NCBI GenBank assembly: GCA_022821085.1 | Contig: JAJEEG010000002.1 | Span: 372,001-436,000 of the forward strand | Direction: 5' to 3' | DNA length: 64,000 nt | Source of the DNA: Candidatus Latescibacterota bacterium | Lineage (GTDB): Bacteria > JAAXHH01 | Part shown: piece after piece, positions 8,241 to 47,286 of the stretch | Position numbering within the stretch: position 1 is the stretch's first letter | Layout: every line of letters starts with the position of its first letter | Notes under the pieces: model-generated | The model's database searches: none | Told to the model about the DNA's origin: nothing | Seen by the model: the letters and a program-made list of their open reading frames with translations, nothing else | Position numbers and translations under genes: made by a program

Positions 8241-8358
8241 CCCCCGGCAGCGTCCTACTCTCCCACAAGGTCACCCAAGCAGTACCATCGGCGCAAGAGG
8301 GCTTAACTACTCTGTTCGGAATGGGAAGAGGTGTTTCCCCTCCGCTATCGCCACCGGA
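8241..8358 (-). rRNA. rrf: 5S ribosomal RNA
   Basis: The minus strand begins TCCGGTGGCGATAGCGGAGG and ends GGACGCTGCCGGGGGA, the usual bacterial 5S ends, which pair to form helix I. The conserved loop sequence reading CCCATTCCGAACAGAG and the GGGAGAGTAGGACG end are clear. It is the last gene of the rRNA operon, about 55 bp after 23S. Ends are estimated to within a few bases. Confidence 0.93.
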
Positions 8359-8412
8359 AGAAATGGGTTGCAATTACAAGGAATGAGGAAACGACGTCGT
8401 AGCAAAGGAGCG

Positions 8413-11481
<3,069 letters not shown>

Positions 11482-11542
11482 ACAAAGGCTACTGTGCTTG
11501 AGTGCTCCGATGTACAACGCCGTTCCCGTCATTCCTATGTAA

Positions 11543-11555
11543 TTGTCAAAGAGCG
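11543..11555 (-). promoter_or_regulatory. boxA-like antitermination element in the 16S-23S spacer
   Basis: On the minus strand the spacer reads CGCTCTTTGACAA between tRNA-Ala and 23S. This closely resembles the boxA element (TGCTCTTTAACA) bound by NusB/S10, and matches the element in the 16S leader at 13496-13508. Confidence 0.6.
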
Positions 11556-11585
11556 GGCACCGTCATGATGCGGACCGCGCCCCAG

Positions 11586-11658
11586 TGGAGATAACCGGGA
11601 TCGAACCGGTGACCTCCGGCTTGCAAAGCCGGCGCTCTCCCAGCTGAGCTATATCCCC
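11586..11658 (-). tRNA. tRNA-Ala (anticodon TGC)
   Basis: The minus strand folds into a cloverleaf with acceptor arms GGGGATA and TATCTCC, a D-arm AGCTCAGCTGGGAGAGC, the anticodon loop CTTTGCAAG (TGC) and the T-arm GGTTCGATCC. The CCA end is not encoded. It sits in the 16S-23S spacer after tRNA-Ile. Confidence 0.95.
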
Positions 11659-11675
11659 AGCTTCCGGCTTTCGGA

Positions 11676-11752
<77 letters not shown>

Positions 11753-11839
11753 CCTGATGCTACAGGCCCCCCACTTCAAAAACATGACAGCGTGCACGCC
11801 ACAGCGCCGGACAAGTCGACCTCGAGTTACGAGAACTCT

Positions 11840-13401
<1,562 letters not shown>

Positions 13402-13694: not shown

Positions 13695-14720
13695 TCAGGG
13701 GGCCGAATCTATGGTCAGCAGATCGTTGCCGTTTACGTCCGGGGTCGCGCCGCCCGCACGCCCGTTCGAAGGGTGCGCGCCATTCCCATTTGCGGACTGT
13801 CCGCCTTGACCGTTTCCGTTTTCCGAGACCGCGCCGCCCGCACGCCCGCCTCCCACGCTGTCCGCCTGATCGGCCGCGTGGTAGGAGCTGCGGACCAGGG
13901 GGCCGGACTCCACGTGGGGGATGCCGTACGCCTCGCCCGCCTGCTTGAACCGGGCGAACTCGTCCGGATGGTAGTGCTTGCGCACCGGCAGATGCTTCTT
14001 CGTCGGCTGCAGGTACTGCCCCACCGTCAGGATGTCACAGTGCACCGCGGCCACGTCGCGCATCAGGGCATGGACGGCTTCGTCGGTCTCGCCGAGCCCC
14101 ACCATGATGCCCGTCTTGGTCTTCGCGCCCCGGGCTTTCGCGCGCTCGAGCAGTTCCAGCGACTGGTCGTACCGCGCCTGGGGCCGCACCGTCCGGTACA
14201 GGTCCGGCACCGTCTCCAGGTTGTGGTTCAGCAGGTCGGGACGGGCGTCGAGCACGGTCTGCAGCGCCGATTCCGAACCCTTGAAATCCGGGATGAGCAC
14301 CTCCACGCCCACGCCCGGGCACCGGCGGCGGATGGCCCGGATCGTCTCGGCGAAGATCGGCGCGCCGCCGTCGACCCGCTCGTCCCTGTTCACCGACGTG
14401 ATCACGGCGAACCGCAGGCCCAGCTTCTCCACGGCCCCGGCCACGCGCTCGGGCTCGTCCCAGTCCAGCCCCTGGTCCGGCCGGCCCGTCTTGACGGCGC
14501 AGAACCCGCAGCTTCGCGTGCAGATATCGCCCAGGATCATGAAGGTGGCGGTGCGCTGCTCCCAGCATTCCCAGATGTTGGGGCACTGGGCGCTCTCGCA
14601 GATGGTGTGGAGGCGGTTGTCCCCCACCAGCCGCTTCAGTTCCTGGAAATTCGGCCCTTGCTTCAGGCGCACCTTGAGCCACGGGGGCTTGGGCACGTGG
14701 GATGTAGTCGATTCGCTCAT
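13695..14720 (-). CDS. lipA: Lipoyl synthase
   Basis: LipA is a radical-SAM enzyme that inserts two sulfurs into protein-bound octanoyl groups to make lipoate. The auxiliary cluster cysteines are seen in [12 protein letters not shown] (near residues 43-54), the SAM cluster in CTRSCGFC, and the C-terminal RSSYHA serine motif. The ATG at 14720 (MSESTTSH) is the likely start, since the frame upstream of it is not LipA-like. After RSSYHAADQ there is a tail of about 50 residues rich in Gly, Asn and Ala that the family does not need. No lipB is adjacent. Confidence 0.92.
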
Positions 14721-14859
14721 AGCACTACAGGAACAAAAAGCGACCCTCCGGCGCCGTGAACCGTCGTTCCGCGCCGAAGCGGCCGCCATGGATGTCTGGT
14801 ACTTGACTTGCGCTTCGTTATCCGGGTTACGGTCGAGGCCCGACCGGTTGTTTCGAGCC

Positions 14860-15354
14860 TCATCCAGGCTTCATTTCGGGCGCGCCGTCGTCCCCCGGCG
14901 AAATGACCACGGCCTCCTCGTCGAGGTGTCCCGCGATGGTCTTCGACAGGTCGTTCAGGTCGGTCCGGCAGAAGCCTGTGTTACTGTCGAGTATGCCGCC
15001 GCCCTCATCCATGAGGAACCAGGTCGGCACGTTCGTCAGGCCGAAGTCCGAGGAAGCCCAGTGGGTCGTGTCGTACACGTTCGGAAAGGACGCGCCGTGC
15101 TCGTCCATGAACGCCTGCGTCTCTTCCGGCGTGTCCTGCGAGACGCCCAGTACCCGGAATCCCCCGTTCCCACCGTAGGCCTGGTGGATCTTATCGAAAT
15201 AGGGGGCGCTGAACTTGCAGGTCCCGCAGCCCACCTTGTAGAAGACCGCCAGCATCCAGCCGCCGTTCGCCTGATCGGCCAGTGACGTCGAATTGCCGTC
15301 CGCGTCTTCCAGCGCGACTTCCGGGGCCGCGACCCCGGCTTCCAGAAACGCCAT
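14860..15354 (-). CDS. Peroxiredoxin/TlpA-like redoxin
   Basis: This 164-residue cytoplasmic protein has a thioredoxin fold of the AhpC/TSA-redoxin group. The active-site segment is [17 protein letters not shown], giving a CxxC pair near residues 43-46. The cis-Pro loop is seen in [14 protein letters not shown]. It could reduce peroxides or disulfides. A GGGAG ribosome-binding site precedes the ATG at 15354, and a near-consensus promoter lies at 15440-15467. lipA follows 139 bp downstream on the same strand, so the two may share a transcript. Confidence 0.8.
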
Positions 15355-15467: not shown

Positions 15468-15685
15468 TGATTCGGTGGTGCGGGGCAGCAAGCGACCATA
15501 CCACGAGATCGAAGACATATCGCACTATGAAAAAGGTCATTTCTAAGGACGTTTAGGGACTTCCCTGGGCGGTTTTACAGAATCAATTGATTCCAATTTG
15601 ATTAACTTGGGTTCTGAAGCATCTAAACTATCAGAGGGTTAAGTCTCTCACTGAGTAATCGACACCTGCCAGGGGGTTCTCCTCG
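15468..15685. other. Intergenic region, no gene seen
   Basis: Together with the promoter and leader of the redoxin gene this fills the 331 bp between the redoxin and the first metallopeptidase. It is A+T-rich compared with its surroundings and marks the left edge of a lower-GC stretch that runs to about 19.6 kb. An AGGGGG ribosome-binding site lies at 15671-15676 for the next gene. I see no convincing promoter, terminator or repeat. Confidence 0.5.
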
Positions 15686-16576
15686 ATGATTAGCGATCCC
15701 GACAAAGTCCGGTTGGTAACTTCCGATATCGATCATTTCTGGCTGGCGTACGACCTGGCGGAAGGCAGGACTACGGAAGAAAAAAGAAACATCTTCGAAT
15801 CGGAATACTTGGCAAAGGGCAGTATCGGTTTAAAGGATTTCATCGACGCCAGAATCGAAAGCGCAGAGGGATTGGTCGAGGTAATCGAAGCCCGGCCGAG
15901 GTTTTACGCTTCAATAAGAGAAAGCTCGAACCGCGTGTTGGATTTAACCGATCAGATCCGCGGGTATATGCACAACTGGAAGCAACTGTACGACAAGGCG
16001 GTATTTCCGGACGTGTACTTTCTGATAGGTAAAATGACTTCTGGAGGAACTACATCGAGCAACGGACTTCTGATCGGGACCGAGATTTCCTGTCGAACGG
16101 ACAATCTTCCCAAGGACGAACTGACTGAGTGGTATCTTGAAGTCCTCAGACCTGTAGAAGACATTCCATACATTGTTATTCACGAACTTATACACACACA
16201 ACAGGCCTATGACTATGGAGAAAACACACTACTGGGTCAGTCTATTAACGAAGGCGCCGCCGATTTTCTTGGAGAGTTGGCAACCGGAAAACACATAAAC
16301 CCTCATTTGCATGCGTATGGAGAAGCGCACGAGACTGAATTATGGGAATCGTTCTCGAGTGAAATGTTACAGACCGACTTCAGCAACTGGCTCTACAACG
16401 GAGGCAATTCCACAGGGGCAAGACCGGCTGATCTTGGATATTACATAGGTTACAAAATATGTGAAGCTTACTATGGGAAGGCAGCCGATAAGAAGGCGGC
16501 TATAGAAGATATTTTGGCCATAAAGGACGGCCCCGACTCGCTACGTTTTTTAAAGGAAAGCGGTTACGGTCATTGA
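15686..16576 (+). CDS. Predicted zinc metallopeptidase (GldB/DUF2268-like)
   Basis: This 296-residue protein has no signal peptide or membrane segment. The zinc-site motif HELIH is at about residues 166-170 and is followed about 20 residues later by NEGAADFLGEL, whose Glu is the expected third ligand of a gluzincin. The overall plan resembles GldB/DUF2268-type predicted peptidases; the substrate is unknown. An AGGGGG box lies nine bases before the ATG. The next gene is also a predicted metallopeptidase and may be co-transcribed. Base composition is lower in GC than in the flanking genes. Confidence 0.65.
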   Translation: MISDPDKVRLVTSDIDHFWLAYDLAEGRTTEEKRNIFESEYLAKGSIGLKDFIDARIESAEGLVEVIEARPRFYASIRESSNRVLDLTDQIRGYMHNWKQLYDKAVFPDVYFLIGKMTSGGTTSSNGLLIGTEISCRTDNLPKDELTEWYLEVLRPVEDIPYIVIHELIHTQQAYDYGENTLLGQSINEGAADFLGELATGKHINPHLHAYGEAHETELWESFSSEMLQTDFSNWLYNGGNSTGARPADLGYYIGYKICEAYYGKAADKKAAIEDILAIKDGPDSLRFLKESGYGH

Positions 16577-16641
16577 ACGATTACCGCATCCCCGATCGAG
16601 ATACACCGGCTCCTTCGTCCCCTAGAAACGGAGAAATGGTG

Positions 16642-17640
16642 ATGGCCAGGTTGAACATTAACGTAGATCCCAGAATCGAACTTGTCATCACCATAAAGTT
16701 GCTGTGTGACTATGAGGGACTAACCAGGTACGACGTGGCGTATTCCCAATGCATGCGGGATTACTTTTTGCCATTCAAAACGCATGATGCAGCCAAACTG
16801 TTTAAGAAAATCACAGAGCATGGCACTTACTCGGACGCCTATCTGGGTCCGGTGTTGTCGCTTTCGAACCCGCCGGAACTTACGCCTCTATTCCCCTTCG
16901 AAAACCACGAATACTACATTCGAGCATTTCAAGACGAAACCCGGTTTCGAACGTTCTACGAACTACTGAGTGATTTCGCGATCCAATCAGACTTCGGCAC
17001 TTTTTTCGAAAGCCAAACCGCATACTTCCAATCCTTGGTCGACGAAGTTGCTAAAACGCTGGACAGTAAGAATTTGATCGACGTCCTGGAACTATACTAC
17101 GGAATGCGACATCGGGACTACAATCTGGTTCTAAGTCCCTTGTTTCAACACGGTGGAATCGGGCCTCGAGTTCGAAACCCTGATAGCAGGCTGTCCATAT
17201 TCAGCGTAATCGGACCGGTTGGATCGGTTGATGGTATCCCGATGTTCGGAACTAGAGATGAATTGCTGGAACTCATCTGGCATGAGTTCGGCCATTCGTT
17301 CGTAAATCCCGTTACTGAACGACATCGCTCCGACATTAGGAAGTATGCTCCGTTGTTAGATCCAATTCTGGAGAAAATGGCACAGGCAGGTGGTTACGGA
17401 GATTGGGAGATCTGCCTTAACGAACATTTGATCCGTGCCATTACATCTCGATTGTTTCACCGCGAATGGGGTCCGAAACACGGTGATCGATTACTCGTGC
17501 GGGATATAGAAAAGGGATTTCGCTACCTCCCTGCCCTTTTACGCGCACTTGAGGATTTCGAGCAACATCAAATTCGAAACACGACCTTCGAAGATTACTA
17601 TCCTGCATTGCTGAAGTCTTTTGATACATATCTCGAATAA
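16642..17640 (+). CDS. DUF4932-like predicted zinc metallopeptidase
   Basis: The 332-residue product begins with a VDPRIELVITIKLL segment typical of DUF4932 proteins and has HEFGHSFVNP at about residues 214-223, a probable zinc-binding HExxH. ENHEYYIRAF and DWEICLNEHLIRAI are further conserved-looking blocks, the latter a possible third-ligand region. No secretion signal is visible. I chose the ATG at 16642, seven bases after GGAGAA; a longer frame back to a TTG at 16573 overlaps the previous stop and is less likely. Function is unknown; the context with another HExxH protein and a sigma factor suggests a shared pathway. Confidence 0.6.
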   Translation: MARLNINVDPRIELVITIKLLCDYEGLTRYDVAYSQCMRDYFLPFKTHDAAKLFKKITEHGTYSDAYLGPVLSLSNPPELTPLFPFENHEYYIRAFQDETRFRTFYELLSDFAIQSDFGTFFESQTAYFQSLVDEVAKTLDSKNLIDVLELYYGMRHRDYNLVLSPLFQHGGIGPRVRNPDSRLSIFSVIGPVGSVDGIPMFGTRDELLELIWHEFGHSFVNPVTERHRSDIRKYAPLLDPILEKMAQAGGYGDWEICLNEHLIRAITSRLFHREWGPKHGDRLLVRDIEKGFRYLPALLRALEDFEQHQIRNTTFEDYYPALLKSFDTYLE

Positions 17641-17673
17641 CCGTCCGTATTCAGAACTCGATATGATTCGAAT

Positions 17674-19545
17674 ATGTCGACACTCATAGACAACGACACC
17701 TATAATGTCCAGCTTTGCCTGGAAGGAAACGCGAACGCCTTCGAACCATTGGTCCGGCGATATCAGAATGCTGCTTTCGCCGTGGCTTTGGGTTACCTCC
17801 GGGATCGGGCAGATGCCGAGGACGTGGTGCAGGACGCCTTTATCTCGGCCTATTGTAAATTGTCGCAACTGAAGGACCCGGCTGTTTTCGGAAGTTGGTT
17901 TCACCGAATCGTAGTCAACCGTTGCAAGGAGTGGGTCCGCCGAAGCAGAATCGGTCGTCAAGTCCGTGTTGATGCGGATTCCGGAGGATTACACGATGAA
18001 TTCGCTATCTCGGATCGTATCCATCGCAAATACATCGAGCGTCTTGAAATCTGGGACGAAGTCGAGCTACTCCCAGAACACTATCGCCAAGTCGTCACGT
18101 TGTACTATTACACCGGTTTCTCTCTGAAAGAAATCGCCGCCTTCCTGGAGATCCCCGAATCGACTGCGAGGGGACGGCTCTACCAGTCACGGATCCGTCT
18201 TAGAAAAGCACTGTCGCCCCTGGAAAAGGAGACCATCGTCATGAGCCGGATTGATGTAACCGCGGAAGTTCAGGATGTAGTCTGCAAGCTCGCCAAAGAA
18301 GACTTCGAAGAAACGATCGACATGGGCGAAGTAGAAAACATCGTCCTTTATTGCGGAGTCAGTACTGAGGTGGAGATCGTCCGGACCAAAGGAGAGCAAT
18401 TGATTGTCAGAGGGTCGAAAATCGGACTTGGATATACCGAAGAAGAGGCGGATCACAACCTTGGAGGGTTTTCCGTAACCCACGATACTGTCGATGATTT
18501 CTATAAATCCGGTCCCCATGAAGGTGAGCTTTTTGTGGGTGTAGATTCAAGCGGCAACAAAAACGCTGCCATGACCAAACGGATCAGTGACCACTGGAAA
18601 CGGGACTTGATGAACGACTGGATGCTGGACGAAGTATGTAACGGAGTCAGGTTGGTTGATCTCTATCCGGACCTGAAGTCCGATATCGATGCGTTTCCTC
18701 CGCTGCCAAAGCGAGCGCGAGCTAGCTTGAGCAAATCAATACGGATTTCGGTTCACACGATGGAAGTACAGCCGATTCATGTACCGAACTCCGCCATGAA
18801 GGGAAACATCAAGGACGTTTTCCAGGTTTACTGGTCCGACGACTCCAAGGTCTTCGGACCGGCCTCGTACTGTCATGTTTCCATTGAGGTCCCGGCCGGG
18901 AAGAACATTTCGGTGTTCAGGGCAAAGCGAGTCAACGCGGAGGGTTTGAAGGGTTCCTTGATGGTATATGCCTGCCATTCATGCCAGATAGCTGATATCG
19001 CGAAGGATGTGTACCTGTTCAACAGCATGTTTTCGGATATAAATGAAGTTGGTGGTATGTTCTGTCAGCGCATGTACGAATATGGCGGCGCGAGCTACGA
19101 TGAGGGAATGATACGTAATATGGATGTGTGGGAAGGTAAACTCTCCAACGTAAAGGGTGGTGTGGATATCGATGTCGGCCGTTTCGTACTGGATGCTCAG
19201 GACTTGGAAGGCGACGTATCCATTTACAATCGATTCGGCACAACCCGCTTGTACCAGTCATCCAGGGAATCCGGTACCCGGTGTAACCTCAGGACCGTTG
19301 CAGGTGAGACAAAGCTGGTTCTGGATGAAAGACTCGCGAAGAAGGTCAGCCTGGTGATGTATACGCGCTGTGGCGTCTTGAAATTGGGTCAGGCGAAGGA
19401 CGAGATGCGGCTGTATTCGACGTATAACGACGGGCATCGCATTACGGCTGGAACCACATACGATACAACCCAAGCGGACTACCTGCTACTTGCAGAAAGT
19501 GGCACAGCCGAAGTCGAGTTGTTAAACGGCTCCGACTCGAAGTGA
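17674..19545 (+). CDS. ECF sigma factor fused to a large C-terminal domain
   Basis: Residues 1-188 are an ordinary ECF sigma factor: region 2 with YLRDRADAEDVVQDAFISAY and region 4 with LPEHYRQVVTLYYYTGFSLKEIAAFLEIPESTARGRL. Such factors direct RNA polymerase to stress or surface-response promoters. Residues 190-623 are an added domain of about 430 residues with no membrane segment. Its second half has repeating short strands (GDVSIYNRFGTTRLYQ, AGETKLVLDER, YTRCGVLKLGQ) like a DUF4097-type beta-helix. At the junction there is an in-frame ATG (18241) with AAGGAG nine bases upstream, so a separate C-terminal product could also be made. No anti-sigma gene is adjacent, so the extension may control the sigma domain itself. 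Confidence 0.75.
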   Translation: MSTLIDNDTYNVQLCLEGNANAFEPLVRRYQNAAFAVALGYLRDRADAEDVVQDAFISAYCKLSQLKDPAVFGSWFHRIVVNRCKEWVRRSRIGRQVRVDADSGGLHDEFAISDRIHRKYIERLEIWDEVELLPEHYRQVVTLYYYTGFSLKEIAAFLEIPESTARGRLYQSRIRLRKALSPLEKETIVMSRIDVTAEVQDVVCKLAKEDFEETIDMGEVENIVLYCGVSTEVEIVRTKGEQLIVRGSKIGLGYTEEEADHNLGGFSVTHDTVDDFYKSGPHEGELFVGVDSSGNKNAAMTKRISDHWKRDLMNDWMLDEVCNGVRLVDLYPDLKSDIDAFPPLPKRARASLSKSIRISVHTMEVQPIHVPNSAMKGNIKDVFQVYWSDDSKVFGPASYCHVSIEVPAGKNISVFRAKRVNAEGLKGSLMVYACHSCQIADIAKDVYLFNSMFSDINEVGGMFCQRMYEYGGASYDEGMIRNMDVWEGKLSNVKGGVDIDVGRFVLDAQDLEGDVSIYNRFGTTRLYQSSRESGTRCNLRTVAGETKLVLDERLAKKVSLVMYTRCGVLKLGQAKDEMRLYSTYNDGHRITAGTTYDTTQADYLLLAESGTAEVELLNGSDSK

Positions 19546-19606
19546 CGAAGAACGGCAAACCCCGTTGATTTGACCTCAAAGCAATCCCCGAGATACAACC
19601 GACGCG

Positions 19607-20650
19607 TCACTCCTCTACAACCGTCTCCTCGCCTGGGGATGAGGGCCTTTGCCTGAACATAAATGGCATCACCGTGCGAAACTTTACGCGGGCTCCGTCA
19701 TGTACTGCCGGCGTAAAGACCATTTTTCGAGCTTCGTTCAGTATCAAAGAGTCCACCTCGGCGCGACCCGTCGATCTTTCGACGACTGCCGCCACCACGT
19801 TGCCATTAGTACCTACGACGAGATGAACGAAACCATCGCCATGGAAATTGAGATCGACGGCTTCGGTGGGGAGTTCGGGGAAATACAAAATCTCACCTAG
19901 CGTGTCCACCGTGTTGGGACGGTAAATCCCGTCTCTTTCGTCTGCCAACCGATCGGCCTCCTGTTCCGACTGAACAGCCTGGCCCGGTTGACCTCCCTCC
20001 TGATCCGGCAGGTCGGCCGGCACCAATCGGACGGTCATGTCCGGCTGGACGGCCGATTCCATTCGCCTTACCATCTGCGTAATTTCTGAGATTTGCCCCT
20101 CAACCGTTGGGGTGTCGGACCCGATGGGTGACAGGTGCATCACGTTGCCGACCTCATCGATCAGCACGATTTGGGGTGAATTCGGTAGATCAAACGGTGA
20201 ATCGACGACCAGGTACACCGGAAAGTTCAACCTGTATTTCTCCACGATCGGCGTGATCTCCTCGGCCGACTGAGCCTGGAGTACGCCGATAACCGGGACA
20301 TTGTCACCGATCATCGATCCAAATGAAGACATCATGTCGAGGGCACCCGGAAAATGCCGCGACGCGAAAAACAAGAGGAGCTGGTGCCCATCGCCGAGAC
20401 CCGGCAATGTTGCTGGTTGGCCGTGCTGATCGAGCGCGCTAAAGGGGGCAATAAACGGCGTGCCGAATATGGTTTGCGCCTGTAGCACGCGGATTTCCAC
20501 CTGCGCATTGTACAGACTGTTCTGCGCATTCTGAAGTTCCTGCACTTGCTGGTCGTTGAGCCAGAGGAGGGCGATGCTCAACGCGGCGAGGGCCGCGACG
20601 GCGACGTAAAGGTACAGCCGAGTGTTCGTGCGGGAGTCGGGTGTGGACAT
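19607..20650 (-). CDS. Membrane-anchored redoxin-like/TonB C-terminal fusion protein
   Basis: The 347-residue protein starts with one membrane anchor (about residues 12-31, LYLYVAVAALAALSIALLWL), then a short coiled coil. A thioredoxin-like domain follows, where the active site reads FFASRHFPGAL: no cysteines remain, so it cannot be a disulfide reductase. The C-terminus (about 265-330) resembles the TonB C-terminal domain (VVGTNGNVVAAVVERSTGRAEVDSLILNEARKMVFTPA). The protein would sit in the inner membrane facing the periplasm. No exbBD or receptor gene is near. A role in binding or relaying rather than energy transfer is possible. Confidence 0.65.
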   Translation of the reverse strand: MSTPDSRTNTRLYLYVAVAALAALSIALLWLNDQQVQELQNAQNSLYNAQVEIRVLQAQTIFGTPFIAPFSALDQHGQPATLPGLGDGHQLLLFFASRHFPGALDMMSSFGSMIGDNVPVIGVLQAQSAEEITPIVEKYRLNFPVYLVVDSPFDLPNSPQIVLIDEVGNVMHLSPIGSDTPTVEGQISEITQMVRRMESAVQPDMTVRLVPADLPDQEGGQPGQAVQSEQEADRLADERDGIYRPNTVDTLGEILYFPELPTEAVDLNFHGDGFVHLVVGTNGNVVAAVVERSTGRAEVDSLILNEARKMVFTPAVHDGARVKFRTVMPFMFRQRPSSPGEETVVEE

Positions 20651-20922: not shown

Positions 20923-21627
20923 GTGCGTCATTCCATTCATTCCCCATCCCTGATCTCCATCGAAGACCTGCATAAGTCCTTCCCGATGGGAGACGGCCGC
21001 ATTCCCGCGCTCCGGGGCGTATCCGCCACCATCAACCGTGGCGAATACGTGGCCGTGATGGGCCGGTCGGGATCCGGAAAATCCACCCTGATGAACATCC
21101 TGGGGTGCCTGGACACGCCCACGGCGGGCAGGTACGCCCTCGACGGCAGGTCCGTTGGAGACCTCACGGACGATGAGCAGGCCTTCATCCGAAACCGGAT
21201 GATCGGGTTCGTGTTTCAGGCCTTCAACCTGCTCCCGAGAATGGACGCGCTGCACAACGTGGAACTGCCGCTCCTCTACCGCGGCCTGGACAGCAGTGAA
21301 CGGCGTTGGCGTGCCATGGAAGCCATGGAAGCGGTGGGCGTGAGCGACCGCGCCCGCCACAGGCCCAACGAGATGTCGGGCGGGCAGCGCCAGCGCGTGG
21401 CCATCGCCCGCGCGCTGGTCGGCGAGCCGTCCATCATACTGGCGGACGAGCCCACGGGAAACCTGGACAGCGGGACCGGAGAGGAAATCATGGCGATATT
21501 CGACCGGTTGAACCGGGAAGGACATACGATCGTACTGGTGACGCACGAAGCGCATGTCGCCAGTCATTGCAGGAGGATCATCCGACTGCGCGATGGTGTG
21601 ATTGAGGAGGACCGTCCGATTGTGTAA
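20923..21627 (+). CDS. ABC transporter ATP-binding protein, LolD/MacB type
   Basis: This 234-residue ATPase belongs to the MacB/LolD/FtsE group, which drives lipoprotein release, efflux or cell-envelope remodelling. Motifs are Walker [20 protein letters not shown]-loop [12 protein letters not shown], signature [15 protein letters not shown], Walker [14 protein letters not shown] and H-loop [10 protein letters not shown]. The start is a GTG with AGGAAGG four bases ahead. The FtsX-like permease that normally partners it is not adjacent; the following genes encode tiny membrane proteins and ComEC. Confidence 0.85.
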
Positions 21628-21693: not shown

Positions 21694-21942
21694 ATGGACG
21701 CCACAAACGTCATAAGCAATGTGGTTGTAATCGGGATTCTGCTCTTCGTGTGGCGCAGCCTCGACATGCGGATATCTCAACTCGATATGCGTCTGAGCGA
21801 CCGAATCGATCACCTTGATGAGCGGGTCTCGCAGATCGAGGAACGGATAGCGCACCTGGGCGAGCGCGTATCTCGGATAGAAGGGCTGATTGAGGCCTTC
21901 GTCCGGAAAAGCAACCCCTTTGAATCGGAAAAGAAGAACTGA
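21694..21942 (+). CDS. Small membrane-anchored coiled-coil protein
   Basis: This 82-residue protein has one N-terminal membrane segment (about residues 5-20, VISNVVVIGILLFVWR) followed by an amphipathic helix with repeating units (LDMRISQ, LDMRLSD, LDERVSQ, IEERIAH, LGERVSR). A good ribosome-binding site, AAGGAGATGAC, precedes the ATG. I do not know its function. It resembles the next gene in plan, so the two may interact or oligomerise; they form a short same-strand run between the ABC ATPase and comEC. Confidence 0.65.
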   Translation: MDATNVISNVVVIGILLFVWRSLDMRISQLDMRLSDRIDHLDERVSQIEERIAHLGERVSRIEGLIEAFVRKSNPFESEKKN

Positions 21943-22002
21943 TTGGAGGAGACGCATACCACTTCTAAAACGATATCCACGATCAAATCTTGAAATCATG
22001 AA

Positions 22003-22296
22003 ATGAGTATCATGGAAAACGCACATGTCTGGCTTCAACCCCTGATCCTTTTGACCGCCTTCATCTTCTTCTGGCGCGAGGCGAAGGGAAGCCGGCAGGA
22101 ACTGAAGCAGGATATCCGGGAAGAACTCAATAAGATCGACGCGAGATTCAACCGGTTCGAGGATAACATATCGGAACGTTTTGGCGAGGTGGACGCAAGG
22201 TTTGATCGTTTAGTAGATCATATCCGGGAAGATGCCGGGAAAGTGGATGCTCGTTTCGACCGGCTCGAGCGCATTTTGCTTGAACGCCAGAAATAG
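22003..22296 (+). CDS. Small membrane-anchored coiled-coil protein
   Basis: This 97-residue protein has an N-terminal hydrophobic segment (WLQPLILLTAFIFFW) and then repeats of 11 residues built on DARFxRxxDxI (for example DARFNRFEDNI and DARFDRLVDHI). Such 11-mer repeats form long straight or right-handed coiled coils. It is a structural counterpart of the preceding gene. The start could also be the ATG at 22012, since neither start has a clear ribosome-binding site. It ends six bases before comEC, suggesting joint transcription. Confidence 0.6.
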   Translation: MSIMENAHVWLQPLILLTAFIFFWREAKGSRQELKQDIREELNKIDARFNRFEDNISERFGEVDARFDRLVDHIREDAGKVDARFDRLERILLERQK

Positions 22297-34187: not shown

Positions 34188-35465
34188 ATGACAGCGGACC
34201 GAATGCTCACCGTGGAGGAAGCCCAGGAGATCGTGCTGGATTCGGTCTCCGTCTCGGGCACCGAGCGCGTTCCGCTGGCCGAGAGCCAGGACCGGGTGCT
34301 CGCCGAAGACGTGGCGCCGAGGTTCGACGTGCCGCCCCACGATAACTCCTCCGTCGACGGCTATGCCGTAAGGGCAGCGGATACTTCTGGTGCATCCGAG
34401 GACGCCCCCTGCCGCCTCGAGGTCCTCGAGGAGATTCCCGCGGGCGCCGTTCCCGCCGCGCATGTGGATCCCGGCAAATCTTCGCGCATCATGACCGGCG
34501 CCTTCCTCCCCGGAGGCGCGGACGCCGTCGTCATGGTGGAGAACACCAGGCAGAACGCGGAAGACGTAGAGATCCTGAAGGCGGTAGAGCCGGGCCAGAA
34601 CGTACGCTACCGGGGGGAAGACGTAAAACAGGGCCAACGGGTGCTTTTCGCCGGCACCGAAATCGGTCCCGGCGAGATCGGCCTCCTGGCGGCCTTCCAG
34701 CGATCACAGGTCGCGGTGCGCAGGCGCCCGGCCGTGGCCATCCTCTCCACGGGCGACGAGGTCGTCGAGATCGACGAGCGGCTCGTACCCGGAAAGATCG
34801 TCAACAGCAACAGCTATTCCCTGGCCGCGCTCGTGCGGGAAAATAATGGCCGGCCGGTCAACCTGGGCATCGCCCGGGACAGCGAGGCGGAGATCGCGAA
34901 TGCCATCCGGTCGGCGCTGAGCGCGGATATCGTCCTTTCCACCGGCGGCGTTTCCGTGGGCGATTACGACTACGTTAAAAAAGTGCTGGAAGACCTCGGC
35001 GCGGACATGAAATTCTGGCGGGTGAAGATGAAGCCGGGCAAGCCCCTCGCCTACGGGCTGCTGCAGGGAAAGCCATTCTTCGGCCTGCCGGGCAATCCCG
35101 TTTCATGCATGGTCTCCTTCCTCCTCTTCGCACGGCCCGCCATGCGGAAGATGATGGGCTACGGCCCCCATGACTGGCGCCTGCCCACGGTCCAGGCAGA
35201 ACTCGAAAACGATCTGACGGCCGGCGGCGACCGGCGCCACTATCTGCGCGCCAGGATCACCTCTACCGGCGGCCGGTTCTACGCCTCGACCGTCGCGGGC
35301 CAGGGGTCCGGCATGCTCAGCTCCATGACCGGGACCAACGGTCTCGTCGTCGTGGAAACGGGCGTAACCTCGGTGCCCCGAGGTTCCGAGGTCCAGGTGC
35401 TGCTGATGGGCGCGCCCGGACACGACGCGACCGGACAGGGCGCGGCCGGACAGGATGTACCGTGA
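34188..35465 (+). CDS. moeA: Molybdopterin molybdotransferase (first copy)
   Basis: MoeA inserts molybdate into adenylated molybdopterin. The 425-residue protein shows DVPPHDNSSVDGYAVRAADT at the N-terminus, the MoCF-binding fold with VLSTGGVSVGDYDYVKKVL, and GLPGNPVSCMVSFLLFARPA, all family signatures. The length is normal apart from a short Gly/Ala tail. A second moeA follows directly and the two are translationally close. No moaA, mogA or molybdoenzyme is visible in the window. Confidence 0.92.
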   Translation: MTADRMLTVEEAQEIVLDSVSVSGTERVPLAESQDRVLAEDVAPRFDVPPHDNSSVDGYAVRAADTSGASEDAPCRLEVLEEIPAGAVPAAHVDPGKSSRIMTGAFLPGGADAVVMVENTRQNAEDVEILKAVEPGQNVRYRGEDVKQGQRVLFAGTEIGPGEIGLLAAFQRSQVAVRRRPAVAILSTGDEVVEIDERLVPGKIVNSNSYSLAALVRENNGRPVNLGIARDSEAEIANAIRSALSADIVLSTGGVSVGDYDYVKKVLEDLGADMKFWRVKMKPGKPLAYGLLQGKPFFGLPGNPVSCMVSFLLFARPAMRKMMGYGPHDWRLPTVQAELENDLTAGGDRRHYLRARITSTGGRFYASTVAGQGSGMLSSMTGTNGLVVVETGVTSVPRGSEVQVLLMGAPGHDATGQGAAGQDVP

Positions 35466-35475
35466 GGAACGCGCG

Positions 35476-36717
35476 ATGATTTCCGTTATCGAAGCCCGGG
35501 ACGCCATTCTGGACCGGATCCGGCCAATCGGCGTGGAACGCGTCGATATTGCCTCGGCGCGCGGCCGGGTACTGGCCGAGGACGTCCACGCCACGAGGAA
35601 CCAGCCGCCCTGGGACAATTCGGCCATGGATGGCTACGCGGTGCGGGCCGCGGATACGGTTCCCCCATCGCTGGATGCCCCGGCGGAACTGGAGATCGTC
35701 GAAGACCTTCCCGCCGGATATGTGGCCAAACGCTCCGTCGGGCCGGGACAGGCGATCCACATCATGACGGGGGCGCCGGTGCCCGACGGTGCGGATACCA
35801 TCGTCCGGGCCGAACGCGCGCTAAGGGTCGATGAGCGCCGCGTGCGCATACTCCAGGCCGTGGAATCCGGAACAGACCTCCGCCGGGCCGGCGAAGACAT
35901 CCGCGAAGGGGACCTCATCATCCCGGCCGGCATGCTGATCCGGCCGGCCGAGGTCGGCCTGCTGGCCTCGACCAACCGCTCCCACGTGTCGGTCTACCGC
36001 CGGCCGAGGGTGGCCGTGCTGTCCACCGGCGACGAGATCGTCGACGTGGACGAACCCCTCGAGGACGGCAAGATCGTGGACAGTAACGGATACGCCCTTT
36101 CCGCGCTGGTGTCGGACGCCGGCGGCATACCCCTGCGGCTGGGCATCATTCCCGATACGCAGGAAGCGCTCGAGGAAGCGCTGCGTGACGGACTCCTGGC
36201 GGACGCGGTCATCACCTCGGGCGGGGTTTCGGTGGGAGAATACGACTACGTCAAGGCCGCCCTCGAAGCCGTCGGCACCTCCATGGCCTTCTGGAAGGTG
36301 TCCATGACACCCGGACGCCCCCTCGCCTTCGGACACATCGACGACACCATCGTGTTCGGCCTGCCCGGCAATCCGGTGGCTTCCATGGTTACCTTCGAGC
36401 TCTTCATGCGTCCCGCCCTGCTCAAGATGCAGGGGTATACCCGCATCTATCGCCCCACGATCAAGGCCCGCCTCCTGGAAGACCTTACGAAATCGCTCGG
36501 GCGCAAACAGTTCATTCGCGTGACCCTCCAGAAGCGGGGTGACCAGTACTTCGCGTCGCGTACCGGCGCGCAGGGCTCCGGCATTCTGAGATCCATGTCC
36601 ATCGCCGACGGGTTGGCCGTAAGTCATGAAGACCAGGAAATCATGCGGGCCGGCCAGGATATCGAGGTCATGTTGCTCGGGGGTTACAGCGCGCTTTCCC
36701 CTGATCGTAACTATTGA
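35476..36717 (+). CDS. moeA: Molybdopterin molybdotransferase (second copy)
   Basis: This 413-residue MoeA paralogue has NQPPWDNSAMDGYAVRAADT, ITSGGVSVGEYDYVKAAL and GLPGNPVASMVTFELFMRPA. I chose the ATG at 35476, six bases after a TGAGGAA box that overlaps the stop of the first copy; an ATG at 35455 lies inside that gene. Paired MoeA proteins in other organisms can divide molybdenum and tungsten between them; that is a possibility here, not shown. It is convergent with rsmG. Confidence 0.92.
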   Translation: MISVIEARDAILDRIRPIGVERVDIASARGRVLAEDVHATRNQPPWDNSAMDGYAVRAADTVPPSLDAPAELEIVEDLPAGYVAKRSVGPGQAIHIMTGAPVPDGADTIVRAERALRVDERRVRILQAVESGTDLRRAGEDIREGDLIIPAGMLIRPAEVGLLASTNRSHVSVYRRPRVAVLSTGDEIVDVDEPLEDGKIVDSNGYALSALVSDAGGIPLRLGIIPDTQEALEEALRDGLLADAVITSGGVSVGEYDYVKAALEAVGTSMAFWKVSMTPGRPLAFGHIDDTIVFGLPGNPVASMVTFELFMRPALLKMQGYTRIYRPTIKARLLEDLTKSLGRKQFIRVTLQKRGDQYFASRTGAQGSGILRSMSIADGLAVSHEDQEIMRAGQDIEVMLLGGYSALSPDRNY

Positions 36718-43954: not shown

Positions 43955-45379
<1,425 letters not shown>

Positions 45380-46075
45380 CCCGCCTGCCGTCCAGCAACA
45401 CGCACCACGCCGACATATTCCCCCAACGATGTGGATAACCATCAACTTATCCACATTTTGTCAACAAATCACACCTGTCGTAACTCCCGCTCCATCATGA
45501 AGTTGCATATTGTATAAACACCATTTCCACACCTATCCACCGAGGATAATGCACCGGGGTGTGGAAAGGTCGCCTGACACGGTCTGAAAAGGGAGTGTTT
45601 CGGCCTCGAACGGGTTCGGATACGTCCGTTTACGCGCCGACAGATATCTTGCGCGTTTCCAGGCTGGAGATGATGTGGATAACCCGGGGGATAATGGGAT
45701 GGGATGTGTTGATGATTTGTGCATAACCCGGCGTTTTGTCCGTCTTCGGTTTCTAGTGTGTGGATTATGTGGATAAACAACTGTTTAGTTGCCTGTTTCT
45801 CCACATCTTTGTTTTTACTCAAGTGATTGAATTTATTGTAGGTTATTATCCTATATGCGTGTTTATGCACATATCCACATTCCTTATTAGTATTATTCCT
45901 TTCTAATACATAAAGACTATAAAACTAAGTATACACAATATATTGTACGTTTCTCAGAGCCTTACTGCGACGTTATACAATATAGGGTAGTTTTACCTCA
46001 CAAAACCCTTGCGCTGTCCCGAGCGTAATCTATATTATATTCAATAGTTTTAAGAGGTTACTGTACAATCAACCT
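45380..46075. other. Replication origin oriC (dnaA-dnaN interval)
   Basis: This gene-free interval holds four perfect DnaA boxes (TTATCCACA or its complement) at 45430-45438, 45447-45455, 45674-45682 and 45768-45776. Close variants occur at 45759-45767 (immediately abutting the previous one), 45797-45805 and 45871-45879. From about 45820 to 46060 the sequence is strongly A+T-rich, in contrast to the GC-rich genes, and is the likely unwinding element; TTAGTATTATT at about 45886 could be a DnaA-trio-like stretch. The location between dnaA and dnaN is standard for many bacteria. Confidence 0.9.
46009..46036 (+). promoter_or_regulatory. Candidate dnaN promoter
   Basis: TTGCGC (46009-46014) and TATATT (46031-46036) lie 16 bp apart at the right end of the origin region, about 120 bp before the dnaN start. 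Confidence 0.5.
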
Positions 46076-46096
46076 CCCAGGTTCATTCTGTACAGT
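46060..46096 (+). promoter_or_regulatory. Two-tier inverted repeat in the dnaN leader
   Basis: ACTGTACA (46060-46067) is repeated inverted as TGTACAGT (46089-46096). Inside, AACCT (46071-46075) pairs with AGGTT (46079-46083) around a CCC loop. In RNA it would form a hairpin 60 bases before the dnaN start; in DNA it could be an operator. It is not the SOS box, whose spacing differs. Confidence 0.6.
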
Positions 46097-46155
46097 GCGG
46101 ATCCGACGAGGTAACCGGCGAAGAACGCCCTGAAGACTGCCCAAAGGAGTACCCT

Positions 46156-47286
46156 GTGAAAATCACCATTCCATCCAGTTCCACCCTGATGAGCGGCATA
46201 CAGACCGTTCTGAACGTCGTCCCGCCGAAGACCACCCTGCCCATCCTGTCCAACATGCTGCTGGAGACGGAAGACGGCCACCTGACCATCGGGGCCACCG
46301 ACCTGGACATATTCATCATGACGAAGATCCCCGCCCAGATATCGGGAGAGGGGTCGATCACGGTGCCCGGGAGGAAATTCGCGGAAATGGTGCGCGAGCT
46401 GCCCGACGCACCCGTGGATATCGAGGTGGACGGGGTCAAGGTGATCATCCGGTGTGACCGGGGGGTATTCCGCCTGGTGGGCATCAGCAAGGACGAGTAC
46501 CCGGCGCTGCCGGACGTGAAGTCCGAACAGACCATAGAGCTTCCGTCGTCATCGCTGCAGCGGCTGATCCGGAAGACGGTGTACGCCGTATCGAAGGACG
46601 AGATCCACCCGAGTCTCTGGGGCGCGTTCCTCCGCATAGGCCGCGGCGCCGTCCGGATGGTGGCCACCGACGGGCACCGGCTGGCCAAGACGACGCTCCC
46701 CTGCGATGTTTCCGATGCGGCCACGGAGGGGATCATCGTGCCGCCCAAGGCGCTGAACAACCTCTCGCGCCTCATCGGGGAATCGGATTCGCCATCCCGG
46801 ATCACCATCGGCGAGAACCACGTCCTGTTCGAACTGGAGAACGCCCGGTTGTTCGCCAGGCTGATCGAAGCGACCTATCCGGACTACGAACGGGTGATTC
46901 CCACGGGGAACGACAAGGTGGTCAAGGTAAACCGCGAGGAGCTCGAGAGCGCCGTCCGCCGCGTGTCCGTGCTTTCCAACCCCTCCACCCGCCAGATACG
47001 GTATTCCTTCCGGCCGGGTTTTGTCGAATTGAGTTCCTTCAGCCACGATATCGGCGGCGAGGCCCGGGAAGAAGTGCCGGCCGAATACGAAGGCGAAGTC
47101 ATGGACACGACCTACGATTTCCGCTACCTGCTCGACGTCGTTGAGCGGATCGAGAGCGAAGAGGTGGTTTTCAAACTGGATACGCCGGTCAGCGCGGGGA
47201 TCATCACCCCGTCCCGGGAAGAAGCGGAGGGCGAGGACTACGAGTGCCTGATCATGCCCTTCAGGACGACCGAGGCGGAAAGCTAA
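46156..47286 (+). CDS. dnaN: DNA polymerase III sliding clamp (beta subunit)
   Basis: DnaN is the ring clamp that tethers the replicase to DNA. The 376-residue protein has the three-domain beta-clamp plan with PKTTLPILSNMLLETEDGHLTI in domain 1 and the C-terminal EDYECLIMPFRT that ends clamp proteins with the MPMR-like pocket residues. It starts at a GTG preceded by AAAGGAG. recF follows two bases after its stop. Confidence 0.95.
   Translation: MKITIPSSSTLMSGIQTVLNVVPPKTTLPILSNMLLETEDGHLTIGATDLDIFIMTKIPAQISGEGSITVPGRKFAEMVRELPDAPVDIEVDGVKVIIRCDRGVFRLVGISKDEYPALPDVKSEQTIELPSSSLQRLIRKTVYAVSKDEIHPSLWGAFLRIGRGAVRMVATDGHRLAKTTLPCDVSDAATEGIIVPPKALNNLSRLIGESDSPSRITIGENHVLFELENARLFARLIEATYPDYERVIPTGNDKVVKVNREELESAVRRVSVLSNPSTRQIRYSFRPGFVELSSFSHDIGGEAREEVPAEYEGEVMDTTYDFRYLLDVVERIESEEVVFKLDTPVSAGIITPSREEAEGEDYECLIMPFRTTEAES

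Follow-up and report, generated by a model that had tools for sequence, protein, structure and literature searches.

The DNA considered here is a window of 64,000 nucleotides (G000:C2:372001-436000) from the 3.75-Mb genome of a Candidatus Latescibacterota bacterium. Its interval 15468-19560 holds three genes, all on the plus strand, which encode a DUF2268/GldB-like predicted zinc peptidase, a DUF4932 predicted peptidase and an extracytoplasmic function (ECF) sigma factor fused to a long C-terminal domain (Table 1). The earlier note, made from the letters alone, had described two different HExxH proteins (HELIH and HEFGH) followed by a sigma fusion on the same strand, as well as A/T-rich codon usage, and both observations hold. 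The GC content is 49.2% (0.492) as compared with 61.9% (0.619) for the whole window, and among 240 sliding 4-kb windows those with starts at 15501 and 15251 have the lowest and second-lowest values. The GC content at third codon positions (GC3) is 0.52, 0.52 and 0.60 for the DUF2268, DUF4932 and sigma-fusion genes, respectively, that is, z -5.2, -5.3 and -3.9 relative to the 33 other window genes longer than 500 bp (0.828 +/- 0.058), and the same genes take ranks 1-3 as codon-usage outliers among the genes compared. Part of the wider GC dip is accounted for by the rRNA operon at 8242-13401. The remark that the three proteins lack a signal peptide or membrane segment was likewise borne out, no hydrophobic N-terminus or membrane segment being found in any of them (highest 19-residue Kyte-Doolittle means 0.83, 1.43 and 1.03).

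Table 1. Features of the low-GC block and of its surroundings, in window coordinates unless another locus is named
Feature	Position	Strand	Evidence or remark
lipA	13695-14720	-	conserved left border, 13695..15354
Peroxiredoxin-like gene	14860-15354	-	conserved left border; beyond lipA the rRNA operon
Degenerate promoter-like element	15596..15630	+	55 bp upstream of DUF2268 start; same register in G001, G010
DUF2268/GldB-like predicted zinc peptidase	15686..16576	+	Pfam PF10026 8.6e-11, PF25594 GldB_lipo 1e-9
HExxH motif HELIH	16181-16195	+	within DUF2268 gene
DUF4932 predicted peptidase	16636..17640 (listed ORF 16573-17640)	+	Pfam PF16286 8e-52
HExxH motif HEFGH	17281-17295	+	within DUF4932 gene
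ECF sigma factor fused to ~430-aa C-terminal Toastrack-like beta-helix	17674..19545	+	Pfam, alignment, AlphaFold2 models, structure comparison
Sigma domain, residues 1-185, regions 2 and 4	17674..18228	+	Sigma70_r2 2.6e-14, Sigma70_r4_2 8.1e-12
Likely Toastrack-like beta-helix, residues 221-616, low-confidence insert ~255-398	18334..19521	+	VIA Z 13.1/13.0/12.6/11.5
TonB_C protein	19607..20650	-	TonB_C 3.4e-6; weak AhpC-TSA 0.008, below cut-off
ABC ATPase	20923..21627	+	Pfam ABC_tran 3.2e-33
Small coiled-coil proteins	21694-22296; L030 7496-8771		before comEC

By its sequence, the N-terminal part of the fusion fits the definition of an ECF (group 4) sigma factor, with regions 2 and 4 and without region 3 or 1.1. 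The only Pfam families above cut-off are Sigma70_r2, r4_2, r4 and Sigma70_ECF, the last one at its cut-off and UPF0122 below it; the NCBIfam profile TIGR02937 matches at 85.4 bits (cut-off 42.9), and Foldseek places the sigma domain with AlgU/SigH/sigmaE (~1e-6). The protein was compared across 12 genomes of one Latescibacterota genus (G000-G011, G000 being that of the window). The C-terminal part is a conserved fused domain, as in ECFs with a C-terminal extension, 95 of its 444 aligned columns being invariant across 13 sequences, and the ratio of nonsynonymous to synonymous substitution rates (dN/dS) of the fusion is 0.12-0.13 against the G001, G010 and G004 orthologues.

AlphaFold2 models, made with eight sequences, suggest what this domain may look like. 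In the full-length model the block means of the predicted local distance difference test (pLDDT) reach 67-91 at residues 401-470 and 491-560. Structure comparison of that model put 3lyc, 3jx8, 4opw and 3pet on top (Z 13.1, 13.0, 12.6 and 11.5), over 188-206 residues and with root-mean-square deviations of 3.0-3.3, the next beta-helix of another kind following at Z 9.2. The C-terminus alone retrieved 4opw, 3lyc, 3ljy and 3jx8 (Z 11.5-10.5), and its best Foldseek match was 4qrk (E 6e-3). We take 3lyc, 3jx8 and 3pet to belong to the same fold family as the Toastrack structures 4QRK and 4OPW. The latter two are the Toastrack examples given by Ravi et al. (PMC11237479). A right-handed beta-helix is well supported by the models, and its identity as a Toastrack is likely, not proven: the right-handed, single-stranded beta-helix of the 4QRK/4OPW type is found on low-confidence models, and weak matches to the DUF4097 (Toastrack) hidden Markov model (HMM) occur in 5 of the 13 members (best E 0.0055), the window member giving none at E 10.

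The fusion was detected in 10 of the 59 genomes searched, all ten within the genus and all with the gene at one single chromosomal site. With a profile of the C-terminus, 11 of the phylum's 16 genomes were hit, the addition being G009, which has a C-terminal fragment at a contig edge; at E 1e-5 the profile had no match in G005 (520 contigs) or in four genomes of other genera. Where contigs reach, the site reads rRNA - lipA - peroxiredoxin - variable part - ABC ATPase - comEC - carB, the contigs of G006 and G008 ending within 200 bp of the sigma gene, just before it. The variable part consists of DUF2268, DUF4932, sigma A and the TonB_C gene in the window; DUF2268, DUF4932, sigma A, sigma B and a MacB/FtsX permease in G001 and G010; sigma B, DUF2268, sigma A and a fragment of the TonB_C gene in G004; permease, sigma and the TonB_C gene in G007; one sigma gene with the TonB_C gene in G002, G003, G006 and G008; and a single sigma gene in G011. 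By synteny, the TonB_C gene of the window occupies the place of the second sigma fusion and the permease of G001 and G010, and the ABC ATPase, presumably of MacB/LolD type, directly follows the permease in those two genomes and stands without one in the window. A tree splits the sigma fusions into two old types, which form the tandem lineages A and B and of which the window keeps A only; dN/dS is 0.12-0.22 across the two lineages, and dS between the paralogue types amounts to 1.3-2.3.

All three genes occur together in 3 of the 12 genomes (G000, G001 and G010), always at this site, and the peptidase genes were not found at it in six of the ten genomes that hold the fusion. Searches of the whole genomes of G006 and G008 gave no DUF4932 gene in either, and no DUF2268 gene in G008 and one, elsewhere, in G006. 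By gene content, the conserved unit is the sigma fusion and not the trio that had been proposed as such. What remains of the suggestion of a regulatory locus is a sigma fusion at a fixed, genus-wide site. Absence of the block from sister genomes had also been named as a check; most of them appear to lack DUF4932, found in three genomes, and DUF2268, found at the site in four, but not the fusion, present in at least 10 of the 12.

Composition invites the idea that the block is an island of foreign origin, acquired recently, whose three cargo genes have nothing to do with one another and whose low GC is that of the donor. The GC3 deviations given above fit such an origin, as does the sporadic occurrence of DUF4932, which a family profile finds in 12 of 384 relatives and in 21 of 395 genomes of the phylum of G348, which we take to be Bacteroidota. 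G000 and G001 are, moreover, nearly identical across 3 kb, with identities of 0.96-1.00 in all eleven 300-bp bins of 16300-19545 as against 0.73-0.97 in the flanks (16 bins with data outside the rRNA genes); ComEC of G001 is 87% identical over the 320 residues compared. However, the sigma genes have GC3 values of 0.56-0.64 in all ten genomes, at the same site. Their low GC is therefore, as far as base composition can tell, an old property, and it is no proof of recent arrival. The divergence between the paralogue types points the same way. Besides, the two borders of the block share no 12-base word, the C-terminus of the fusion has no tblastn match in the plasmid records of PLSDB at E 1e-3, and other low-GC3 genes exist in the genus (L035-L037). 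No integrase or transposase was recognised among the seven window proteins scanned with Pfam. For the sigma fusion, already the part for which this origin is weakened, recent horizontal arrival of the whole block was rejected on account of the single site, the low GC3 in ten genomes and the old paralogues, and we regard the foreign-island explanation as unlikely. The part of the earlier suggestion of horizontal acquisition that stands is mobility by recombination, the right part of the block having probably been exchanged recently between species. A defence-system reading was also dropped, PADLOC giving no match at E 0.01 for the three block proteins.

The upstream regions of the sigma units share the element TTTTGATCTTT-N13-CGTCnTA, which may also be written TGATCTT-N15-GTC and which, by its layout, is a predicted ECF-type promoter; the ECF layout is GGAACTT-N15-GTCTAA. 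With 0-1 mismatch it heads the apparent units that contain 10 of the 13 sigma-fusion genes, the others lying in the DUF2268 - DUF4932 - sigma units of G000, G001 and G010. A matrix trained on seven other sites found, unaided, the site of G007, which has one mismatch and precedes a permease - sigma unit. In the 13 stretches read, the pattern with up to two mismatches matched only at these ten sites; in the 12 whole genomes it gave 45 sites as compared with 21 for the reversed pattern. Nine of the genomic sites have no mismatch, and every one of them belongs to this locus: a sigma fusion follows in eight cases and the DUF2268 - sigma unit of G004 in the ninth. A general promoter and terminator scan gave no excess over shuffled sequences.

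The element might, on the other hand, be a housekeeping-type promoter (-10 TATACT or TACAAT) that merely accompanies these genes while the sigma fusion acts on other promoters. Its near confinement to this locus would suit this explanation, and so would the sequences that follow the CGTC box, TATACT in several sites and TACAAT in G003, G006 and G008. Yet the fixed spacing resembles the ECF layout, and the second-sigma site of G001 (CCTTTTCTA) and a further group of sites, set 3 (CTAACAGA), lose the TATACT-like part and keep the CGTC box; the set-3 sites, in addition, stand before a permease homologue. Taken together, these features make a housekeeping promoter improbable.

The set-3 sites (G010, G007 and G004) lie 48-87 bp upstream of another MacB/FtsX permease, which is the closest homologue (68-70%) of the permease found beside the sigma fusion in G001 and G010. 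The latter protein has two MacB_PCD and two FtsX stretches in G001, to which the G010 copy is 90% identical. Permeases of this kind form a large family, with 119 matches at E 1e-40 in six genomes of the genus (15-27 per genome). Upstream DNA was tested for 70 of them, 46 of these pieces having a start codon at one of four in-frame places near the expected start. Four regions exceeded the 99.9% null, as compared with 0.07 expected, namely that of the G007 island unit, a training site of the matrix used for this test, and those of the three set-3 orthologues; a fourth orthologue, in G003, scored more weakly. Both boxes are kept in all three set-3 sites, and much of the surrounding DNA varies. 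The promoter footprints suggest that the permease is probably a target of the sigma fusion. Directly upstream of the promoter-bearing permease homologue lies a 436-aa gene without Pfam match (L159 1598-2908, minus strand).

As to the peptidases, the DUF2268 protein resembles the DUF2268/GldB-like predicted zinc proteases (PF10026, PF25594) in having HELIH with a conserved EGAADF, and it stays far under the cut-off of the GldB profile TIGR03514 (12.4 vs 190 bits). Its orthologues in G001 and G010 share with that family hydrophobic, signal-like N-termini, which end in ATASA and SAYA, each followed by QQ (N-termini and cleavage sites judged by eye and hydropathy). The ~150-170 bp that encode this Sec-like signal are missing from the window gene, and the signal is likewise lacking in the G004 copy. 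Because two orthologues carry signal-like N-termini, the ancestral enzyme was probably exported, and the argument that any proteolysis would be cytoplasmic fails for DUF2268. Among the four island copies dN/dS is 0.13-0.19, indicating purifying selection. Homologues occur in 6 of the 59 genomes, in four of them at the block site, and a search by sequence for relatives among solved structures gave two chance-level rows only. Second DUF2268 paralogues stand in low-GC clusters near MacB/FtsX permeases (L035-L037); the L037 cluster also holds an S66 LD-carboxypeptidase, a beta-lactamase-family gene, a metallo-beta-lactamase-fold gene and a NUDIX gene.

The DUF4932 protein matches its family (PF16286) over nearly the full length of the domain (profile 2-330 of 332), HEFGH motif included; several homologues elsewhere have a signal-like N-terminus (by eye), whereas the window protein has none. 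Its start is most likely the ATG at 16636 and not the TTG at 16573, because the G010 orthologue has a TAA within the match to the longer form and an uninterrupted 334-aa frame. Values of dN/dS are 0.24-0.29, no relative was found by sequence among solved structures, and the gene is present in 3 of the 59 genomes searched, the same three of the genus. Outside the genus 37 DUF4932 loci were found and 31 read, and an ECF sigma gene lies near DUF4932 in 5 of these 31 as against 0 of 18 controls (Fisher P 0.14, not significant). The five include L070 and L106, which are congeners, and L107, from the same phylum as those. The gene order in L070 is sigma, a small zf-HC2-like protein (weak, E 0.0025) and DUF4932, and in L072 a sigma gene, a DUF4097 protein and DUF4932 lie within one gene run. 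Non-Bacteroidota controls contained no sigma gene in 171,250 bases (22 pieces, many of them short contigs and two also among the 18 controls). No DUF2268 gene stands beside DUF4932 in the 31 loci, as judged with an HMM built from the genus copies, which remote relatives could escape. We treat the association of DUF4932 with sigma genes as a suggestive lead and not as a result.

It is highly doubtful that one or both peptidases cut between the sigma domain and the beta-helix and so free the sigma factor, as with fused anti-sigma domains: the adjacent, co-directional genes of G000, G001 and G010, the sigma-type promoter of DUF2268 in G004, the five loci elsewhere, L070 included, and the activation of some ECFs with fused regulatory parts by proteolysis, reported in PMC8999054, speak for it, but six of ten genomes have the fusion with neither peptidase at the site, DUF4932 is restricted to three of twelve, the ancestral DUF2268 enzyme, to judge from its two signal-bearing orthologues, would not meet a cytoplasmic sigma factor, and the association of DUF4932 with sigma genes is not significant. 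The peptidase genes would be accessory to the sigma-fusion locus, many of its holders showing neither of them there; where present, they are under purifying selection, and in G004 DUF2268 comes under the sigma-type promoter.

Building on the sigma domain, the beta-helix fold, the fixed site, purifying selection and the promoter footprints, all read from sequence or models, we give even chances to the following interpretation. The locus would encode an ECF sigma factor that regulates its own gene, carries its Toastrack-like control domain in the same chain and works for an ABC permease, the peptidases being accessories, and the block would be one species' version of a regulatory locus found throughout this Latescibacterota genus. 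To judge from the footprints, the sigma domain would recognise the shared element, would activate its own gene (positive autoregulation) and would drive a MacB/FtsX-type ABC permease, either adjoining or elsewhere in the genome. The fused, cytoplasmic beta-helix may take the anti-sigma role; it could dock to a membrane complex, possibly that permease, as the published view of Toastrack domains would suggest, and hold or free the sigma domain according to the state of the envelope. We infer the binding, the sensing and the direction of control. According to PMC8999054, the extension of ECFs that have one and lack an anti-sigma factor exerts control via ligand, partner or proteolysis. Toastrack domains, in the proposal of PMC11237479, act as scaffolds inside the cell close to the membrane and occur together with sigma factors or with an ABC ATPase and permease. 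If these two views are combined, the likely mechanism would be that the beta-helix senses the state of a membrane complex and accordingly restrains or licenses the sigma factor to which it is fused.

A number of observations weigh against this interpretation. On the side of the fold, the ~430 C-terminal residues of the window protein have no Pfam match even at E 10, and mean pLDDT is low (54 for the full length, 58 for the C-terminus). Foldseek alone reaches E values of 0.003-0.006 at best, and with the C-terminus alone phage tailspike beta-helices score Z 10.2, level with some Toastrack-like rows, and 4qrk only Z 8.3. On the side of the promoter, the seven sites that served to define the element all come from this very locus, two of the perfect sites (G003 and G008) nearly duplicate a training site, and the G007 site was already known when the pattern with up to two mismatches was drawn up. 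Many of the two-mismatch sites are due to chance, because the reversed pattern yields nearly half as many. The window genome has five sites with up to two mismatches, none with a convincing target: three are within genes, one lies over a start codon and the fifth falls between genes, 265 bp upstream of an unrelated one. The window's own candidate at 15596..15630 scores -7.1 with the position weight matrix (3.8 in G001 and 5.3 in G010) and is the best of 133 aligned positions at P = 0.13, which is not significant; it looks decayed and is not claimed as a promoter. On the side of the permease, the gene stands beside the sigma fusion in only three of ten genomes (G001, G010 and G007), the G007 copy is only 45% identical to that of G001 and has one internal stop, the island permease lacks a promoter site of its own in both G001 and G010, and the three set-3 sites belong to mutual orthologues.

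Since the window lacks the permease, the second sigma fusion, the DUF2268 signal peptide and a recognisable promoter, the wiring of its version is probably altered. A more far-reaching proposal, which we advance tentatively, is that the autoregulated fusion represents a self-contained envelope-stress regulator, in which a sigma factor and a Toastrack sensor-scaffold in one chain replace the ECF/anti-sigma pair. Its dedicated regulon would be small, made up of its own gene, that of a single MacB/FtsX permease among the many of each genome and, in certain species, that of an exported zinc peptidase. The gene content of its one site would have been reshuffled by recombination and reciprocal loss.

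The fusion has the same plan as the ECFs with a C-terminal extension described in PMC8999054, in that a conserved domain is fused behind regions 2 and 4; the extensions mentioned there are SnoaL, TPR or Cys-rich, whereas here a ~430-aa modelled beta-helix, without Pfam match in the window protein, takes their place. The probable autoregulation is a further point of likeness, as would be the lack of a separate anti-sigma gene: none was recognised beside the fusion and no anti-sigma Pfam family was found among the scanned neighbours, although divergent anti-sigma factors could escape. In contrast to ECF48/52/53-type fusions, the protein lacks C-terminal transmembrane segments (Kyte-Doolittle <=1.03) and a zinc-finger anti-sigma part, the ZAS-type H...C..C motif being absent from all three window proteins. 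Its predicted fold is that of the Toastrack (DUF4097/DUF2154/DUF2807) proteins of Psp/Lia-type envelope stress systems, and the contexts reported for them, with sigma factors and with an ABC ATPase and permease, are alike too (PMC11237479). Here, however, the domain forms one chain with an ECF sigma factor, and no PspC or LiaI-LiaF membrane part was recognised in the fusion. In the literature searched on Toastrack/DUF4097 or ECF proteins we found no ECF-Toastrack fusion, the supplementary tables of PMC11237479 being a place that could hold one; the arrangement is possibly unreported.

A putative Toastrack fused directly to a sigma factor, for which both a promoter and a target permease can be predicted, would offer a minimal test case, of one protein and one promoter, for the way in which Toastrack domains relay membrane signals to transcription. 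The locus would also provide a testable regulon for a phylum known here from metagenome-assembled genomes alone. Some members of the Latescibacterota have been reported from sponges (PMC12993501).

Some further observations were made along the way. Another promoter-like set, conserved in five genomes (TTTTGACAATTGGG...), was set aside, as it overlaps the start codon of a gene, which encodes a DUF4097 protein. In G000 the DUF4097 Toastrack protein encoded near G000:C1 2562578 (L169) has an N-terminus that looks signal-like by eye, and a promoter-like match overlaps its start codon, likewise in four sister genomes. Elsewhere in the window, a low-GC gap at 45380-46155 (about 0.49-0.50 around it) is a probable replication origin; it separates genes at 43955-45379 and 46156-47286, which from their translations we take to be dnaA and dnaN. 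Two tandem paralogous genes of 425 and 420 aa at 34188-36717, presumably moeA-like, are also in tandem in L031. Finally, the small coiled-coil proteins encoded before comEC have a hydrophobic N-terminus (by eye), and their copy number varies in the genus.

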